Position numbers and translations under genes: made by a program. The notes under the pieces are model-generated. The model ran no database searches. It was not told the origin of the DNA and was given only the letters and a program-made list of their open reading frames with translations. 31,754 bases of DNA. Source: a virus. Location: positions 1 through 31,754 of IMG/VR virus record IMGVR_UViG_3300027759_000289; one strand, written 5' to 3'. Positions 3,902 to 24,364 of the stretch are shown here, piece after piece (positions within the stretch are counted from its first letter, which is position 1; the number at the start of each line of letters is the position of its first letter).

Positions 3902-3971
3902 AAGTCGCAACGGGATTCAAACCTGTGACACGTCCATAAATGGATTGCTCTACCAACTGAGCTATGCGACT
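3902..3971 (-). tRNA. tRNA-like gene with a 4-nt anticodon loop
   Basis: Acceptor AGTCGCA/TGCGACT pairs perfectly. T8-A9 and the D-arm GCTC-AGTTGGTA-GAGC are canonical, and the T-arm ACAGG-TTTGAAT-CCCGT has the usual 7-nt loop with one A-C mismatch. Between the D- and T-arms there are 20 nt rather than about 23. The only anticodon stem available is ATCCA/TGGAC (first pair mismatched), closing a loop of TTTA, so no normal 7-nt anticodon loop can form and the amino acid cannot be assigned. It is 70 nt long and ends in a T discriminator with no encoded CCA. It could be a decayed tRNA, a tRNA mimic, or a 3-nt sequencing deletion. Confidence 0.75.
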
Positions 3972-4122: not shown

Positions 4123-4139
4123 AATTATTTTTTTTTTGT

Positions 4140-4210
4140 AGTCCCATCAGGGTTCGAACCTGAAAGATTTCTTTAGAAGAGAAATATGTTATCCAATTAC
4201 ATCATGGGAC
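4140..4210 (-). tRNA. tRNA-Arg (anticodon TCT)
   Basis: Acceptor GTCCCAT/ATGGGAC, anticodon stem TTTCT/AGAAA with loop CTTCTAA (anticodon TCT, reading AGA), and T-arm TCAGG-TTCGAAC-CCTGA are all well paired. The D-stem (ATGT/ACAT) is weak but present. The discriminator is T and no CCA is encoded. AGA is a frequent arginine codon in this AT-rich DNA, which suits a phage supplement tRNA. A TATATTTG box lies 21 nt upstream. Confidence 0.88.
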
Positions 4211-4231
4211 CATTTCAATTAATTTATATTA

Positions 4232-6736: not shown

Positions 6737-7560
6737 AAAAAAAAACGCTGAGATTACACGTTTGTGTGAGAACCTTTAGAGTCATTATTGTTTCTACTCT
6801 TATCCACCATCTTTTGAATGGTATTTCTCAGTGACGATTATTTAGGTGAATCACTCCTTGAGGTCTAAACTACTCTCTTATTACTCAACTCTCTTCGAGG
6901 ATGCCTCCCCAACTAATCCTTGCGGGATTAGAGGTCTTTTGTAAAAATACACTCAGCCTTGGGAGCTTTATGTGCCGTGAACAACTCACGACTATGTAGT
7001 CACCTTTCGATTAGACCTGACGGACACTTTTCCTTATTTAAAATTAATAGTTAATAATAATTAAGTTTTGTGTCGTGGATTGTGAAAGTAGTGGTCCGTC
7101 ACGGGCTCTATTATCTTTTGAACAATAGAATACACAACTACTCTCTGAAATGTCCCCATTTCCATATTTCAAGACTACTTCGAAACTAACTCCTTGGTGG
7201 GAGTCGGTCAAGGTCAATAACAGCACCACCTGTACATCAACATACCTTTCGGTTTTAAGTATCCTCTAATAATGGAACTCGCAATAAAAGTGTTGGAACA
7301 CTTTGTTTTGCAAAATTCCTACGAGTTATTCCTATTGGTGTTCCCACCTCAATTAGACGACCCACATCGCCCAATCATCTAACCACTTTCCCTACAGCGT
7401 TGCCCTCGGTACTAAAGGTTAAACGGTATCCCGCTTGTGTACTCGACCTCGATTATCCGAAGACAACCAAGACGCAAATCAATTACACTTTTGATTCACT
7501 TTATCCCACTTTCGTGGTTTATTTTAATGGACCATACACGGCCCATTGAACTCTTCGTTT
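6737..7560 (-). ncRNA. Giant ornate structured RNA candidate (>800 nt)
   Basis: No convincing gene exists from 6648 to 7735, and GC rises to about 43-50% in parts, against about 12-30% nearby. On the minus strand many local hairpins form: 7526-7547 (8 bp), 7506-7517 (CCAC-GAAA-GTGG), 7353-7382 (8 bp), 7337-7348 (GGTG-GGAA-CACC), 7288-7303 (6 bp), 7244-7253 (ACC-GAAA-GGT), 7189-7204, 7146-7171, 7108-7128, 6976-6990, 6913-6931 (7 bp) and 6806-6822. Three loops are GNRA only in this orientation, fixing the strand. The RNA ends with U9 at 6737-6745. Large size, phage context and nearby tRNAs recall the GOLLD and ROOL classes; membership is untested. The ends are approximate, and the transcript may start near 7694. 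Confidence 0.72.
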
Positions 7561-8023: not shown

Positions 8024-8521
8024 TTACAATTCAAGAAAATAAAAATCTTTTACGTCATCTGAATAGTGTAAATCGTATCCTAAATTTTTATATAAGTTTT
8101 GTGCGGTATTGTTTTCTCGATGAGTAATTAAAGTACAATACTTAAATCCTTCCTGTTTAGATACATCGTGAGCCAAATTCATAATTTGTTTTCCAAAACC
8201 ATTTCCTCTAAAATTTTCATTTACATATACATCGTAAATGTATGTGGTGTTGTCCCTATTAAAAAAGTTTTCATCACAATTTTTTTTGCACCAACTTTTT
8301 TCTTCATATAATCTAGGTATGTCATAATCTAATTCCCACCCATTATCAAAAGATACTACATTCGCATAACCAATTAAATTTTCATCTAAACCCATAATTT
8401 TGATTTTTTTCCCAAAAGTATTTTTAGTTTCCCCCTCAAATAAAATATTAGTTGGAATCTGACTACTTTCAAAAATATTCATCATAGATTTCATTCTTGA
8501 TATTTCTTCGTGTAGTTTCAT
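8024..8521 (-). CDS. GNAT-family N-acetyltransferase with N-terminal tag
   Basis: 165 residues. The acetyl-CoA binding motif A is clear: VNENFRGNGFGKQIMNLA (R/Q-x-x-G-x-G pattern), followed by the CTLITHRENNTAQNLYKNLG stretch typical of GNAT motif B, where N-x-x-A-x-x-L-Y-x-x-L-G-Y is usual. Residues 1-18 (MKLHEEISRMKSMMNIFE, then S) are an extra helix ending in I-F-E, the [I/L]-x-E pattern of the putative packaging tag. A 30-residue Cys/Asn/Lys insertion precedes the core. It lies 6 nt downstream of the tagged DHH protein and shares its transcript. The substrate is unknown. A virion-delivered acetyltransferase that modifies a host target is possible but is inference. Confidence 0.82.
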   Translation of the reverse strand: MKLHEEISRMKSMMNIFESSQIPTNILFEGETKNTFGKKIKIMGLDENLIGYANVVSFDNGWELDYDIPRLYEEKSWCKKNCDENFFNRDNTTYIYDVYVNENFRGNGFGKQIMNLAHDVSKQEGFKYCTLITHRENNTAQNLYKNLGYDLHYSDDVKDFYFLEL

Positions 8522-8527
8522 TTTTAA

Positions 8528-10027
8528 TTAACTATTTTCAATTTTTTTATTTAAAATATCCACAAAAGTATTTTTCATATCTTTTACTAAATCCGAATAA
8601 GTTCTTTTTGGTGTGTTTTCCATTTCATCTTCAAAGTTTATACCTTCTCTTCTTATCTGATTAAGAGCGGCTTCAATTTGTTTTTCTGACAACTTTCTAA
8701 ATCTTAAAAGTTTTTGTTTAATGTCTTTAACAAAATTATTATCTCCTTCGTAATTTGCAATCGGTAATGTTTCTTCAGGTAAATCTTTAGTGTATGGTTT
8801 ATCATATCCACTATATAAGAAGTTTATTCCTGATATGTTGGTAATACATTTATGTCCTCCTGAATTTGCTTGTAAAAAGTCATAACCATTAATAGTTTGT
8901 TTTTCAGAATCAAATGAAGGCATTTTACCATATAATGCCATCATATCTTTTGATGTGAAACCAACTGACTCAGGTGTCGCCTCTCTTTCTGAGATTCTTT
9001 TAATAATTCTAAAACTTAGTATTTCTTTTTCTAATTCAGGTCTAAACTTCTCTAAAACCTCATCTTTAATTTCACCTAAGTTTATACCTTTAAGTGCTCT
9101 TTCTTCTTTAAATGGGTTGCAAGATGCTTGAACCATACCGACTTGCCCACCAAGACCAGTCACTAAAAAGTCAGCGTCAGGGTGTATTCTAAATGGTACA
9201 TATCTATCATAAGAACCTTTTCTCATACTACCAAGACCAAATTGTGAAATAACATTTCCTGTTTTTTCTATTGCCCCTTCTTTTTGTCTTGCTTGTAAGA
9301 ATTTTTCTTGGTTTTGTGTCATGGTTTCAATAGATGCAAAATCTTGGTCTTTTGCCATTTTTTTGATATTAGTAAGAATACTAATTAATGATGGTTTCGA
9401 GTTCATTACTAAACTTTCCATGAAGTTAGGATTATTTTTATAAGCCAAAAGTAACTTATTAACCACCAATCCCATTAACATTTTATTTTGTTTTAATGAA
9501 CTGTCTTTGTCAAATTTATATAAGAAGTTCATTACCATTTCTGGAGTTATTTTATTAACAGCAAAGTTTGCAGAATCAACAGTTGATATTAACATTATAT
9601 CGTCAGATGGGAATATTTCTTTAGGGGATATAACTTGTGATATTGTTTCAACATTGGACCTTGCGTGTCTAAAACTTGTTGCAGTATCGTCTTCAACGCC
9701 AGCTTGACTATCGTGATGGTCTGTATGAATAACAAACATTGGTTTACCGTGTGCAAAATCCACAAGTACTGGCATCACATCACCCTCACCTTCAGGTTTT
9801 TTAATTGCAAATTCTTTTGTTCCATATTGAATAACTTCGCAATCAACCACATTAATACCATTTTGTTCCAAATAGTTTTTCATGGCAATTGCAGTTGTAA
9901 CACCATCTAAGTCTTGATGAAAATAAATTTTAGCCTTTTTGTATCTTTTAGCAATATTTTTAATATCTCTAATTCCTGATTCTTTAATCAGCATTCTAAA
10001 TTGACTTTCAGTTATAATAATTTTCAT
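8528..10027 (-). CDS. DHH-family phosphoesterase with N-terminal tag
   Basis: 499 residues from the methionine at 10027, where the tag begins (MKIIITESQFRMLIKE, then S); an in-frame start at 10042 is less likely. DHH superfamily motifs are visible in order: DLDG at 39-42 (motif I), Asp90 in VLVDF, and DHH at 103-105 followed by DS. GGHKC near residue 390 resembles the GGH of DHHA1 domains. The family includes RecJ exonuclease, nanoRNases and cyclic-dinucleotide phosphodiesterases, all metal-dependent hydrolases of phosphodiester bonds; which applies here cannot be read. The C-terminal 100 residues are helical and charged. It is first in an operon with the GNAT gene. A packaged enzyme acting on host nucleic acid or nucleotide signals is inferred. 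Confidence 0.82.
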   Translation of the reverse strand: MKIIITESQFRMLIKESGIRDIKNIAKRYKKAKIYFHQDLDGVTTAIAMKNYLEQNGINVVDCEVIQYGTKEFAIKKPEGEGDVMPVLVDFAHGKPMFVIHTDHHDSQAGVEDDTATSFRHARSNVETISQVISPKEIFPSDDIMLISTVDSANFAVNKITPEMVMNFLYKFDKDSSLKQNKMLMGLVVNKLLLAYKNNPNFMESLVMNSKPSLISILTNIKKMAKDQDFASIETMTQNQEKFLQARQKEGAIEKTGNVISQFGLGSMRKGSYDRYVPFRIHPDADFLVTGLGGQVGMVQASCNPFKEERALKGINLGEIKDEVLEKFRPELEKEILSFRIIKRISEREATPESVGFTSKDMMALYGKMPSFDSEKQTINGYDFLQANSGGHKCITNISGINFLYSGYDKPYTKDLPEETLPIANYEGDNNFVKDIKQKLLRFRKLSEKQIEAALNQIRREGINFEDEMENTPKRTYSDLVKDMKNTFVDILNKKIENS

Positions 10028-10031
10028 ATTA

Positions 10032-10039
10032 ATAAATAC
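10032..10039 (-). promoter_or_regulatory. GTATTTAT, variant of the ATATTTAT motif
   Basis: Lies 4 nt before the ATG at 10027, the same close spacing seen at 5855, 15330, 22321 and 27462. This supports 10027 rather than 10042 as the start. Confidence 0.35.
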
Positions 10040-10047
10040 CAATTAAA

Positions 10048-10074
10048 ATAAAAAACCCACTATAATGGTGGGTT
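10048..10074 (-). terminator. Intrinsic terminator at the end of the 14085-10060 run
   Basis: AACCCAC and GTGGGTT pair around a 7-nt loop, followed by an A-run (U-run on the minus strand). The stem overlaps the last codons of the methyltransferase at 10060 and its stop. Confidence 0.8.
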
Positions 10075-11552: not shown

Positions 11553-11903
11553 CTATTTCCAAAATAATTGTATTATTAAAATTCCTATCGCCAAAATTAA
11601 ACAAACTATGGTTTTAAGTGTTAGTGGTTCTTTAAAAATTAACCAACTTAACCATGTAAAAACAACCGCCCCAACACTAAACCCAATCAACCTTGAAGGC
11701 CACATTTGACCATTAAACGCTATTATCATGTTTTTTACAGAATACATAAATAACATAGATATTGGTATTCCCATCAACACGGTTAACCAATAATTATTTT
11801 TTATCCATTCATATTTTAAAGGTCCTTGAAGTTGAAAGAATGTTGACACTTGAGCTAAAAAACCAAAGAAAATCCCCACTAATAACGCCCATCCATTAAC
11901 CAT
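11553..11903 (-). CDS. Half-size DMT/EamA-like membrane transporter
   Basis: 116 residues with four hydrophobic segments (about 4-22, 38-57, 74-92, 95-114). The ending FKEPLTLKTIVCLILAIGIL resembles the GEPLT...G motif before the last helix in the SMR and EamA families of the drug/metabolite transporter superfamily, whose small members work as dimers. The substrate is unknown. Its ATG overlaps the stop of the glutamine synthetase gene by 1 nt (TAATG), so the two are made together. Moving an amino acid or amine is an attractive idea but is not shown. Confidence 0.6.
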   Translation of the reverse strand: MVNGWALLVGIFFGFLAQVSTFFQLQGPLKYEWIKNNYWLTVLMGIPISMLFMYSVKNMIIAFNGQMWPSRLIGFSVGAVVFTWLSWLIFKEPLTLKTIVCLILAIGILIIQLFWK

Positions 11904-13021
11904 TATTCCTCTTCTCTGTATTCTTTTAACAACTCTTCATTTGTAACTGTTCCGTATTTACCGCTCAGTTCATCTACGTTTATTTTGGTATTCATTTTCA
12001 TGGTAATCTCCATTAATGTTTCCGTACTTTTAAGTGATTTTATAATTTCTAAAACAACTTTATATGAATCAGCGTTAGATGCCGGTCTTCTATCTTCAAT
12101 ATACCCTTTCCAATTTTCGGCGGTTGATTTTGGGATTCTAATTGATGCCCCTCTATCACCAACACCATAACTATATTTTTCAATTGATTGTGTTTCGTGT
12201 TTTCCTGTAAGTCTTAAATTATTTTCAGAACCATAATTTTTAATATGGTCATGATGTCTCGAACCAAATGTATTGAAAATTGCCTGAAAATATTCATATC
12301 CACCTAGTGTTCTCATTCTTTCATTTGAAAAATTGGTATGCATCCCTGAACCATTCCAGTCACCTTTAATTGGTTTTGGATGTAAAATTATTTCATAGTT
12401 GTACTTTTCTGAAAGTCTATGTAAAAAATATCTTGTCATCCATAAATCATCGGCAGCCTTTAAACTTCCTTTAGAAAAAACTTGGTATTCCCATTGTCCT
12501 AATGCGACTTCAGCATTAATACCTGTTATTTCCATACCATACATTAAACATAACGCCATGTGTTCCTCAGCAAAACCCCTTCCAACAACATTATGTCCAA
12601 CTCCACAATAATATTTTCCTTGGGGTTCTAAATGTGGGGTTTCGTGGCCTAAGATATTATTTGTTTTTGAATTTTTAATAAAATATTCTTGTTCGAAACC
12701 AAACCACAAATCTTCTTGGTTTTCAACTTTTGACCTAATGTTTGATTCGTCGGGTGTACCGTCTGAATTTAATACTTCACATAAAACATATACCCTGCTA
12801 TTTTCTAAAGGAAAAGATTTTTGAGTATAATATCTTACAGGTTTTAATATTTTATCTGAATTTTCTGTGTTTGCTTGATTTGTTGATGACCCATCGAAAC
12901 TCCATTCTGGAAATTTGAACTCATTCACATTTGTATTAATTTCTTCAACTTTTACTTTACTTCTAAGGTTTGGTTCTGGAGTATATCCATCTAACCATAC
13001 ATATTCTAAGGTTACTTTCAT
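11903..13021 (-). CDS. glnII: Glutamine synthetase type II (GSII)
   Basis: 372 residues, the usual size for GSII. It makes glutamine from glutamate, ammonia and ATP. All hallmark segments are present: beta-grasp start YVWLDG (7-12) and PEWSFDGSSTNQA (38-50), GFEQEY (108-113), YYCGVG (137-142), EVALGQWEYQV (171-181), GDWNGSGMHTN (220-230), NNLRLTGKHET (267-277), GDRGASIRIP (288-297) and YIEDRRPASN (307-316). The metal-, ATP- and glutamate-binding residues therefore look intact. The GSI adenylylation loop is absent, as expected. The start overlaps the previous stop as ATGA and the stop overlaps the transporter start, so it belongs to the phage operon. It is probably an auxiliary metabolic gene that raises glutamine supply for nucleotide synthesis. 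Confidence 0.95.
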   Translation of the reverse strand: MKVTLEYVWLDGYTPEPNLRSKVKVEEINTNVNEFKFPEWSFDGSSTNQANTENSDKILKPVRYYTQKSFPLENSRVYVLCEVLNSDGTPDESNIRSKVENQEDLWFGFEQEYFIKNSKTNNILGHETPHLEPQGKYYCGVGHNVVGRGFAEEHMALCLMYGMEITGINAEVALGQWEYQVFSKGSLKAADDLWMTRYFLHRLSEKYNYEIILHPKPIKGDWNGSGMHTNFSNERMRTLGGYEYFQAIFNTFGSRHHDHIKNYGSENNLRLTGKHETQSIEKYSYGVGDRGASIRIPKSTAENWKGYIEDRRPASNADSYKVVLEIIKSLKSTETLMEITMKMNTKINVDELSGKYGTVTNEELLKEYREEE

Positions 13022-21486: not shown

Positions 21487-22170
21487 TTATTTTTTTCTAT
21501 ATTTATTTTTACTACTAATTATATTAATAACCTCATCAAAGATAATCTTTTTTCTATTTAAAAACAAGTCCGTTTCAGAATAAAACCCATTGTAAATCTT
21601 TTCAATATCTGACATACCTGCCCACCCAACAAATTTATATTCTTTATTTTTTGGTCCGTAAAGTTTATTAACATTAACTCCAAATAATTTACCCATCCTT
21701 TCATTTAAAGTATTTATGAAATTAACTGACCCACCAACAATTCTCAAGTCCCCTCGTTTAGAATTATCTTTTTTGTCTTCATTTATTCTAATACACCCAT
21801 CACCATCAAAATATCCTCGTAAAAAATGTCTTTCAAGATTTTCATCAATTTTAGGGTAACTTATTGTATAAGTTTTGTTTGGGTGTAATCCAATCTTTTT
21901 TAAGTCATTTATCATTTTCTTACTTGAAAACCCGATTTCAGAAATTTCTCTATGATTACTTCTCCATATTTCAACTTCACTATCTAATAAGGATATAAAC
22001 TTTTTTAATATATCTTCATCTTTATTATGAATTTTAATATTTAATTTATATCTATATTCTTTTGGATTGTCAATTAAACATCCATCAGCATAGATAAAAC
22101 CAAGAAAATAAGCCTTATCTGGAGTATCAATCGTCTTAAAATAATCTTCATTAAATTTTTTTCTTATCAT
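21487..22170 (-). CDS. LAGLIDADG homing endonuclease
   Basis: 227 residues with two LAGLIDADG helices: AYFLGFIYADG at 20-30 and HFLRGYFDGDG near 111-121. Both have the acidic residue that binds the catalytic metal. A single chain with two motifs acts as a monomer that cuts a long site and spreads its gene. The flanking genes are intact, so it is free-standing rather than inside an intron. Its start lies within the end of a ribbon-helix-helix-like ORF (20-nt overlap in another frame), and its stop is 5 nt before the Dam-type gene, whose unmodified relatives are a likely target. Confidence 0.9.
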   Translation of the reverse strand: MIRKKFNEDYFKTIDTPDKAYFLGFIYADGCLIDNPKEYRYKLNIKIHNKDEDILKKFISLLDSEVEIWRSNHREISEIGFSSKKMINDLKKIGLHPNKTYTISYPKIDENLERHFLRGYFDGDGCIRINEDKKDNSKRGDLRIVGGSVNFINTLNERMGKLFGVNVNKLYGPKNKEYKFVGWAGMSDIEKIYNGFYSETDLFLNRKKIIFDEVINIISSKNKYRKK

Positions 22171-22565: not shown

Positions 22566-23519
22566 TATATTATTAATTTGTTCTCTTTGTTCGTTAGTTA
22601 AAGTCAGATTATTCTGTATGCTTATTTTTATGTAAAAATTACCAACAGCACCATCAACTTTATATCCTTTTTTGAAAAGTCTTAATGGTTTTTCAGTATC
22701 AAATCCTTCAGGTAGATTTATTTTTATATTACCATCAGGGTGAGGTATTTCAACTTGGTCGTTTATTAATAAGTCTTTGAAATTTAATTTTAGATAATAA
22801 ATCAAATCATTTCCTGATTTTTCAAAATTGTTGTGTTTCATACACAAAACTTTTAAAATTAAATCGCCCCTACCATATTTAGGTATTTCATCCCCCATAC
22901 CTCTCATTCTCATAAAGTCACCATTATCTACATTGTTTGGTATTTGTACATTAAACTTGCTGTGGTTAGAAATAACCCCATTACCATAACAAACCCCACA
23001 CGCGTCAATTAAATGTTCACCAGTCCCTTTACATTCGAAACAATTTGATTGCATTTGTGTTTTGAAAAATCCCGTACCAACTGTTTGTATAATAAACCCT
23101 CTACCTGCACATCTTGTGCATGTTTTTTTAGTTCCACCAGTTCCCGTGCAACTTTCACAAGATTTATTTGTGTCAACTTCGATTGTTTTTTCCACACCTT
23201 TATAGGATTCTTCAGGGGTAACTACTATTTCAATAATTTTGTCAGCCGGTTTAGGTTGTCTTTGTGAATGTCCCATCATTTCCTCAAAAATTGACCCGAA
23301 CCCACCATTTCCAAATGGGTTTCTACGTTTCATGTCGTAATCACTTCTTTTATTGTCGTCCTTTAAAATATCATAAGCTTCAGAGATTTCTTTAAATTTT
23401 TCTTCACCGTTTGGGTTTACATCTGGATGGTATTGCTTACTTAGTTTTTTATATGTTTTTTTTATATCATCTTGTGTTGCATTTTCACTTACACCTAATA
23501 TTTCGTAATAGTTTTTCAT
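22557..23519 (-). CDS. dnaJ: DnaJ (Hsp40) co-chaperone
   Basis: 320 residues, shorter than the usual 370-380. J-domain at 1-65 with HPD at 31-33, which is needed to stimulate DnaK ATPase. A short Gly/Phe linker (about 67-78, NPFGNGGFG) follows. The zinc-binding region starts at C121 and has all four CxxCxGxG units (CESCTGTG, CTRCAGRG, CFECKGTG, CGVCYGNG), then both C-terminal substrate-binding parts. All key residues are present, so it should be active with host DnaK. The shortness comes mainly from the linker and the C-terminus. Its start codon is separated by 1 nt from a divergent plus-strand gene at 23521. Confidence 0.93.
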   Translation of the reverse strand: MKNYYEILGVSENATQDDIKKTYKKLSKQYHPDVNPNGEEKFKEISEAYDILKDDNKRSDYDMKRRNPFGNGGFGSIFEEMMGHSQRQPKPADKIIEIVVTPEESYKGVEKTIEVDTNKSCESCTGTGGTKKTCTRCAGRGFIIQTVGTGFFKTQMQSNCFECKGTGEHLIDACGVCYGNGVISNHSKFNVQIPNNVDNGDFMRMRGMGDEIPKYGRGDLILKVLCMKHNNFEKSGNDLIYYLKLNFKDLLINDQVEIPHPDGNIKINLPEGFDTEKPLRLFKKGYKVDGAVGNFYIKISIQNNLTLTNEQREQINNILK

Positions 23520-23520
23520 A

Positions 23521-24162
23521 ATGTCAAATTATATAATAGTTCTTTTTAAGAATAGGAAAAAAAGAAAAATTATCAAACGTTATTCTACAGAAAAAAACGC
23601 CATGTCTTTTTTTAAAAAACTTGTAAAACAAAATAAAGAAATAGTTTTTGATAAGAAAATAGAAAATGCAACACCAGTCGATTACCACATTGGTTTACTA
23701 ACAAATCAATCCAATGTTCAAAATACTTTACATTTTGTTGATGATTTGGGTAGAAATCATGTTGCAAACTTACAGGATAAGGATTACGTTTTTATTGATA
23801 TTGAAAAATACAATGTGGAAGAAAAGATATATGATTATCAACTTAAAGACAAAATTAGTTTTTCAGATTTTTTAAAGGAGTACTGTAGTAATAATGAGTT
23901 GAAAAACATCTTTTCATTAAACAACAAAATATGTATACAGATAAATGAAACTATAAGTCTATTTTCATTGAAAGACATTGATGAGTCTTTTAGGTTTTTA
24001 AATATTTTAGAAAAACACTTTTATGAAAATTCAAGGATGGATGCTATTATTGTTAGGGATGTATCAAACGCACAAAGAAAATGGATTTACAGCGTTTTAG
24101 AAGAGATGGGTTTTGATAAGAAAAATTTATACAGACAAAAAACTACTTTCTCAAAAAGGTAA
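23521..24162 (+). CDS. Hypothetical protein
   Basis: 213 residues, plus strand, soluble, unrecognised. It has a very basic start (NYIIVLFKNRKKRKIIKRYS), a beta-like middle and a C-terminal helix-strand part (WIYSVLEEMGFDKKNLYRQK). The ATG is 1 nt from the divergent dnaJ ATG, so its promoter must lie inside dnaJ. It overlaps the gene at 24143 by 20 nt in convergent orientation. No cysteine cluster or membrane span is seen. Confidence 0.65.
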   Translation: MSNYIIVLFKNRKKRKIIKRYSTEKNAMSFFKKLVKQNKEIVFDKKIENATPVDYHIGLLTNQSNVQNTLHFVDDLGRNHVANLQDKDYVFIDIEKYNVEEKIYDYQLKDKISFSDFLKEYCSNNELKNIFSLNNKICIQINETISLFSLKDIDESFRFLNILEKHFYENSRMDAIIVRDVSNAQRKWIYSVLEEMGFDKKNLYRQKTTFSKR

Positions 24163-24364
24163 ATTCAACGTTTGAAATTTGTATCGTGCATTTTTTTTCA
24201 TTTTGATTCAACATCAGATGTTGTAATAGATTAGAAAAGGTGCCTTCATCCAAAGACACCTTTAATTCAACTTTTTCATTTTTGATAAATGAACTTTCAA
24301 GTAAATCTGAAATTTGAGCCAGTTTTTCTAAATCACCCCTAAAACTCTCTTGATTCTCTGCCAT
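24143..24364 (-). CDS. Small hypothetical protein
   Basis: 73 residues, acidic helical first half (SFRGDLEKLAQISDLLESS), then short strands (KCTIQISNVEFTFLRK). Unrecognised. Its start overlaps the gene at 24328 by 37 nt, so the two are probably coupled. Confidence 0.62.
   Translation of the reverse strand: MAENQESFRGDLEKLAQISDLLESSFIKNEKVELKVSLDEGTFSNLLQHLMLNQNEKKCTIQISNVEFTFLRK

Follow-up and report, generated by a model that had tools for sequence, protein, structure and literature searches.

Putative T4-type capsid-targeting tags on a DHH phosphoesterase and a GNAT acetyltransferase encoded by an IMG/VR virus fragment

Two adjacent enzymes, a DHH phosphoesterase and a GNAT acetyltransferase, are encoded in the window, by which we mean the whole IMG/VR virus fragment of 31,754 bases studied here, and the short N-terminal sequences that precede their catalytic domains are probably capsid-targeting sequences of the T4 type. 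Five lines of evidence have led to this reading, namely the exchange of tags, a protease together with a matching site in the capsid protein, the junctions of passenger domains, a putative late promoter, and the isolated Flavobacterium phage immuto. In the account that we consider likely as a whole, from late synthesis through packaging to delivery, the tagged DHH and GNAT proteins would be synthesised late from an [AG]TATTTAT promoter, the helical tag would bind the prohead core, and a gp21-type phage protease would cut after the terminal (L/I)xE; the cut proteins would remain beside the DNA inside the head and reach the next host when it is infected. Packaging of the tagged proteins is strongly inferred from sequence, and their cleavage and injection are inferred. 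A search for a virion proteome of this phage lineage has found none.

The phage of the window is proposed to belong to a T4-like, bS21-type jumbo lineage that infects freshwater Bacteroidota. The record has no head genes in the window, and a 292-kb relative (G001, the record of L042, including loci L096-L110) has been taken whole; part of it has the same order of genes as the window. G001 encodes a bS21 ribosomal protein (PF01165, 7.5e-10; L103:16088-16282, + strand) on the opposite strand within its terminase-portal-protease-capsid cluster, the same arrangement as described for freshwater Bacteroidota bS21 phages (PMC9723584). At least 598 relatives of the DHH protein have been found in IMG/VR, and further ones in uncultured huge phages of 634, 642 and 735 kb; cellular genomes scanned by a pattern method have given none detectable by that method, and PADLOC defence models have given no match. 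The features of the window that bear on the argument are collected in Table 1.

Table 1. Features of the window around the DHH-GNAT pair (a slash marks the predicted cut)
Feature	Positions	Strand	Basis
GOLLD RNA, conserved 3' part	6745..7145, upstream to about 8005	-	Rfam RF02032, 335 bits; follows the DHH and GNAT genes on their strand
GNAT acetyltransferase gene, 165 aa	8024..8521	-	PF00583, 2.4e-14; begins 6 bp past the end of the DHH gene
GNAT acetyl-CoA motif RGNGFG, residues 105-110	8192..8209	-	Sequence
GNAT tag MKLHEEISRMKSMMNIFE, 18 aa; predicted cut after Glu18 (NIFE/S)	8468..8521	-	Comparison with G001 N-termini
DHH-DHHA1 phosphoesterase gene, 499 aa, N-terminally tagged	8528..10027	-	PF01368, E 0.0011, sub-threshold; fold; motifs
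DHHA1-type GGH, residues 390-392	8852..8860	-	Sequence; invariant
DHH motif III, D103-H104-H105	9713..9721	-	Sequence; unchanged across 32 homologs
DHH motif I, HQDLDG, residues 37-42	9902..9919	-	Sequence; H37, D39, D41, G42 invariant
DHH tag MKIIITESQFRMLIKE, 16 aa; predicted cut after Glu16 (LIKE/SGIRD)	9980..10027	-	Comparison with G001 N-termini; E16 invariant; pLDDT <50
Putative late promoter element GTATTTAT	10032..10039	-	4 nt before the DHH start codon; kept at 4-5 nt in most DHH orthologs
Terminator-like hairpin CCCACCATTATAGTGGG, then T-run	10056..10072	-	Sequence; separates the DHH promoter from the methyltransferase gene

The tags have been recognised by comparing 30-mers of the 301 G001 genes of at least 80 aa all-against-all at a BLOSUM62 local score of 45 or more, as hand-made regular expressions for tag scoring had been too loose for one tag class. 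N-terminal 30-mers have yielded 195 pairs from 70 genes, compared with 7 pairs each for interior and C-terminal 30-mers. At this threshold, the N-terminus of the window DHH protein matches 12 G001 N-termini, one of which is that of its ortholog, and the GNAT N-terminus matches three, as opposed to none of 2216 interior windows in either case. Lowering the score to 40 links 66 of the 301 genes (about a fifth), a few of which may be chance links; 63 of these 66 contain [LIVM]xE within the first 36 residues, compared with 36% of interior windows and 46% of untagged N-termini, and the P3 residue is L in 45 and I in 13, P1' being S in 18 and E in 14. The families comprise a recurrent helix M-x-R-I-I-R-L-T-E-S-D-L-x-R-I-V-R-R-V-I-x-E, the type MKIIITESQYxxLIxE seen in DHH, MNLQENIRRIxxMM...E seen in GNAT, the short forms MKRLIKE or MKDLIRKVLKE, and FLISEEEKxRILNxH...LxE. 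In the GNAT N-terminus, a second candidate site, NILFE/G, ends at Glu29. Altogether 13 of the 44 window genes match tags of non-homologous G001 genes; the methyltransferase, glutamine-synthetase-like, DnaJ-like, PcfJ-like and Dam-like genes of the window have no match to G001 tags. Few Pfam families occur among the tagged G001 proteins (LysM, phage lysozyme, PAP2, FKBP, GNAT and others), and none of them is a replication family. In L107-L108 (about 224-258 kb of G001), more than 30 tagged genes are gathered in a long array; most of them have no Pfam family, and the array is a candidate reservoir of delivered proteins. A tblastn search of phages with the 23-aa tag alone has given no match, the query being too short for judgement. 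One may suppose that the N-terminal similarity reflects chance or low-complexity bias and that both enzymes are ordinary intracellular proteins, as AT-rich genomes commonly have short lysine- and isoleucine-rich N-termini and the loose [LIVM]xE is also frequent in untagged ones, but the absence of hits for either tag among the interior windows, and interior and C-terminal controls drawn from the same genome, leave this very improbable and strongly disfavoured. The original prediction of two neighbouring enzymes with a helix ahead of intact motifs has accordingly been borne out, since both reading frames are in place, the DHH motifs are invariant, RGNGFG is present and the tags clear these controls.

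The common property of the DHH tags is their end. Among the orthologs, tags of 7-20 residues and several types have been found, and the terminal Glu is kept throughout; in the main clade all of them end in [LI]xE (VE in two) immediately before SGIRDI, and on a tree of the enzyme core the tag type changes at least nine times. Exceptions to the (L/I)xE end have been noted (L128, L134), two divergent DHH proteins having KTNE as the end of the tag (P3 = Thr). Residues 1-17 of the window protein have a pLDDT below 50 in the AlphaFold model and thus lie outside the confidently folded enzyme, so that the invariance of Glu16 is not explained by a constraint of the fold. The tag ends match [LI]xE, the cleavage motif of T4 gp21. 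The distant DHH clade carries MIKKYQNFLNE, MKKFQSFVNE, MKKYTEFVNE and MQNYNSFINE, each before EVG, and these are very like the T4 IPIII sequence of the T4 record (MKTYQEFIAE/A compared with, e.g., MIKKYQNFLNE/E); T4 gp22 (MLKEQLIAE/A) and gp24 (MAKINELLRE/S) have the same form as the tag ends. A gp21-type S77 protease has been found in G001 (E 5.5e-26) and in a further genome, G003 (8.2e-24), and both encode a gp23 capsid protein whose N-terminal region ends ASHLINE/AAST (G001) or ASFLINE/ASSD (G003), at the position of T4 GSFLTE/AEIG; in the shorter relatives, all of which are fragments, PF03420 and PF07068 have not been found. The loose [LIV]xE is common on its own, and the strength of the case lies in the combination. 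The diverse tag helices could also be regarded as generic interaction peptides, which would send the proteins elsewhere in the infected cell (assembly site, membrane or replication compartment) or to another protease and leave them unpackaged. We consider such a localisation role improbable, as the tag end matches the capsid-protein site of the same genomes as well as T4 gp21 sites, and divergent DHH orthologs carry tags like that of T4 IPIII.

Many DHH orthologs carry C-terminal passengers, among them SET (L038, L019, L055), GNAT (L074), a 120-aa domain of no known kind and larger ones. The occurrence of SET behind a DHH enzyme in phage proteins is an observation in its own right; it has been seen by Pfam in the three proteins named and by alignment in L036, L049 and L057. 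Inteins have been considered for the longer DHH proteins and rejected, as the additional sequence is mostly C-terminal and not within the enzyme. In 15 of 16 extended proteins of the main clade, an extra [LIVM]xE is found at most 14 residues after the DHH domain, compared with 17% of windows elsewhere in the same proteins (binomial P about 3e-11, in a calculation that ignores shared ancestry); at L070 the junction reads PANE. The sister pairs L022 and L023, L042 and L049, and L050 and L057 differ at both ends together, with a 16-aa tag where the passenger is absent and a 7-aa tag where it is present. This association of short tag and passenger holds in 5.2 of 6 independent pairs (p about 0.06) and is suggestive only. 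We propose that in relatives the DHH part also acts as a cleavable carrier for other effectors such as SET, GNAT and others. The wider idea, to which we give even chances, is that exchangeable cleavable tags direct the products of about one fifth of the lineage's genes to the virion, and that the DHH protein is targeted to the capsid as a precursor, from which the prohead protease releases a phosphodiesterase and a swappable effector (SET, GNAT or others). The junctions also bear on an assembly function, according to which the tagged proteins enter the prohead core and have their role there, comparable to that of T4 gp67/gp68, as assembly factors, scaffold or filler of the core; degradation or loss would remove them ahead of injection, so that DHH and GNAT would serve assembly. 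T4 core proteins gp22, gp67 and gp68 do carry the same type of site, and the late element is common to tagged and structural genes; we nevertheless judge this function unlikely, given enzyme domains that are intact and keep every catalytic residue, the conserved cut at the domain edge, and passengers which have been exchanged at least nine times and resemble effectors, not scaffold.

Regarding expression, most tagged G001 genes that have free upstream space are preceded by an [AG]TATTTAT box, the end of which lies 4-38 nt from the gene. The box has been found upstream of 30 of 36 tagged compared with 36 of 101 untagged genes (p 7e-7), the remaining 6 tagged genes having no such element, whereas the host-type (Bacteroidota-type) TAnnTTTG precedes 1 of 36 tagged and 24 of 101 untagged genes (p 0.005). 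Untagged genes with the late box encode the tail tube, sheath, portal, head-tail adaptor and endolysin, the DnaB helicase gene being an exception, and the TAnnTTTG class includes SSB. The two promoter classes of G001 are nearly exclusive, both occurring at only 3 of 137 genes. The layout of the window, in which a hairpin is followed by the promoter, is kept in many relatives and in most DHH orthologs. These patterns suggest that the tagged proteins are made late, together with structural proteins. Expression only early in infection had been named beforehand as an outcome that would speak against packaging; the sequence evidence points in the opposite direction, with a late-type promoter element before the DHH gene. 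The box may be read by a sigma-70 factor that G001 itself encodes (L098:1958-2773, - strand). Its frequent position 4-6 nt before the ATG hints at leaderless late mRNAs. The T4-style TATAAATA has been rejected as late promoter, for it shows no enrichment at tagged genes, where TATTTAT is enriched. In the distant DHH clade (L082, L126, L129, L132), a TTTAATATATA-like sequence lies upstream of the gene in place of TATTTAT and is perhaps the clade's own late element.

Both tags and the TATTTAT motif are also present in an isolated phage, vB_FspM_immuto_2-6A, the capsid protein of which is 40% identical over the matched 61%. In immuto, TATTTAT has been found at 15 of 23 structural leaders compared with 8 of 57 others (p 1.3e-5), tags such as MENFDLKKFLVE/NKLT and MKKSQLRQIIKE/A adjoin head genes, and the site in the capsid protein reads QIVSE/ANVT.

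Downstream of the pair, the window contains a GOLLD RNA; of 20 further DHH loci, 16 likewise have GOLLD after DHH and in the same orientation, and it has not been found in the long-tag and distant DHH clades. Counting the window, 16 of 17 loci have a late box 780-992 nt before the start of the GOLLD model (834-881 in most), and in most GOLLD loci a TAnnTTTG box follows about 70 nt after it (near -790, compared with near -860 for the late box). During lysis, GOLLD levels have been reported to increase, and the RNA to assemble into 14-mer cages (PMC12286853); the late reading of the upstream box fits this. The phages are collinear in general; the position of GOLLD beside DHH is recorded as a side observation and GOLLD is not claimed within the proposed mechanism. 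A group I intron lies downstream of GOLLD in L065 (9106-9301, + strand). Elsewhere in the window, a phage gene that appears glutamine-synthetase-like in sequence occupies 11903-13021 (- strand), with another in G001 at 23185-24312; a putative LAGLIDADG-like ORF of homing-endonuclease type (21487-22170, - strand) adjoins a Dam-like gene without the usual ATG start, and none has been seen at the matching place in G001. Rfam detects two tRNA genes (3902-3971 and 4138-4211, both - strand), of which ARAGORN detects the second only (Arg-TCT).

The DHH protein belongs to the DHH-DHHA1 superfamily, as motifs I-IV and the DHHA1 GGH are present, and H37-x-D39-x-D41-G, D90, D103-H104-H105, D151 and G390-G391-H392 are all invariant in an alignment of 32 sequences with identity down to 21%. 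Its Pfam DHH score is below the cut-off (19.7 compared with 28.1 bits), and the homolog of the 735-kb phage scores above it (29.2 bits). A sequence-based PDB profile search with the DHH alignment has given nothing at E<=1, and close matches in BFVD are only proteins of uncultured phages (44%). AlphaFold models have reached pLDDT 76.9 and 77.6, with residues 106-119, in the region of the active site, staying below 50. The structural comparison that had been suggested along with the original prediction has placed the enzyme in the DHH superfamily, to which all of the best 50 matches belong (Z up to 16.5): PAP phosphatase gives Z 16.5 over 283 residues at 3.9 A, PggH 16.4 over 278 residues at 4.9 A, RecJ about 14, NrnA/DhhP about 12 and NrN about 11. 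Most likely, the enzyme would hydrolyse small linear or cyclic nucleotides on arrival, such as nanoRNA, pGpG/pApA-like molecules or defence second messengers, which is in line with the proposal that other jumbo-phage DHH phosphodiesterases counter nucleotide signals (PMC7824862). A RecJ-like single-strand nuclease acting on host or phage DNA, or on RNA, is a tentative alternative that we regard as a real possibility: the best NCBIfam matches, both sub-threshold, are RecJ (E 0.0013) and archaeal RecJ, motif I reads HxDxDG, and archaeal RecJ is aligned over 305-322 residues of the model. On the other side, the small-substrate enzymes match best, with a margin over RecJ of only about 2 in Z, the window protein is far below the length of bacterial RecJ, and it scores 17.1 bits in the curated RecJ model, which has a cut-off of 396.9. 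The targets named in the original prediction, short RNAs and cyclic-nucleotide alarm signals, agree with the fold, which fits a RecJ-like nuclease too, and they remain speculation.

The GNAT protein exceeds the Pfam cut-off clearly (54 compared with 20.7 bits), and its RimI-like similarity is far under the curated cut-off; it most likely acetylates a host protein, with the choice of target being speculative. A link between GNAT and DHH is supported by L074, in which GNAT is fused to a DHH relative, and by L023, in which a separately tagged GNAT adjoins the DHH gene. In L027, L029 and L034, GNAT stands at the corresponding place without a tag, and in L009/L119-type loci a stop codon is located directly ahead of the usual GNAT start. 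The idea of head targeting, which tag exchange with a fixed (L/I)xE, the gp21-type protease with its capsid site, the late-type promoter and the tags of the isolate have strengthened for DHH, is consequently weaker for GNAT, since some relatives have it untagged.

As about one fifth of the G001 genes bear this kind of tag, the DNA of these viruses may be accompanied into the cell by a large set of injected proteins. If this holds, a sequence tag read from the genome would predict which of hundreds of unknown phage proteins reach bacteria at infection, and a large set of candidate early host-takeover or counter-defence proteins of uncultured jumbo phages would become testable. Many new tags for loading phage heads would become available as well, with Flavobacterium phage immuto as a cultured test system.

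Capsid-targeting sequences and injected effectors are already known as a kind; as far as our searches show, there is no earlier description of the scale, of the variety of tags, of the enzymes or of the predicted cut between carrier and passenger. T4 packages IPI, IPII, IPIII and Alt (PMC7411985), at least ten IPs have been reported in related phages (PMC12373910), and the capsid-targeting sequence (CTS) of the T4 IPs and Alt brings even foreign proteins into heads and is removed by gp21 (PMC9958956, PMC7411985, PMC3012670); after their injection, the IPs of T4 inactivate restriction enzymes of type IV (PMC12373910). The gp21-processed CTS of IPI-III and Alt is, as here, a short N-terminal helix ending in (L/I)xE that is common to unrelated proteins, and a gp21-type protease and gp23 occur in both systems (here in G001 and G003). 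In contrast to T4, the present lineage has several tag families, a genome with at least 66 tagged genes, tagged enzymes and multi-domain precursors, and Bacteroidota hosts. In SPN3US and phiKZ-type phages, many head proteins are cut by the prohead protease and ejected (PMC5694885, PMC7411985), as is proposed here, but several of their propeptides exceed 100 residues and a counterpart of the T4 scaffold has not been confirmed (PMC5694885), whereas the present tags have 7-20 residues and a scaffold-like gene adjoins the capsid gene. Polyvalent proteins injected with phage DNA, as reviewed in PMC7824862, are likewise multi-domain effectors, including GNAT domains, that are proposed to travel with DNA; here, predicted prohead-protease sites separate the domains and a capsid-targeting tag leads. 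The window DHH enzyme has the fold, motifs I-IV and GGH in common with NrnA, DhhP, PggH, the catalytic part of GdpP and NrN, and differs from them by its length (499 compared with about 320 aa), a helical insertion between the two domains, the N-terminal tag and the C-terminal passengers of its relatives. With other jumbo-phage DHH phosphodiesterases it shares the superfamily and the proposed use against cyclic-nucleotide defence; those enzymes are not described as tagged or packaged in the available part of PMC7824862, and the window DHH is much nearer to its BFVD matches from uncultured phages than to these named enzymes.
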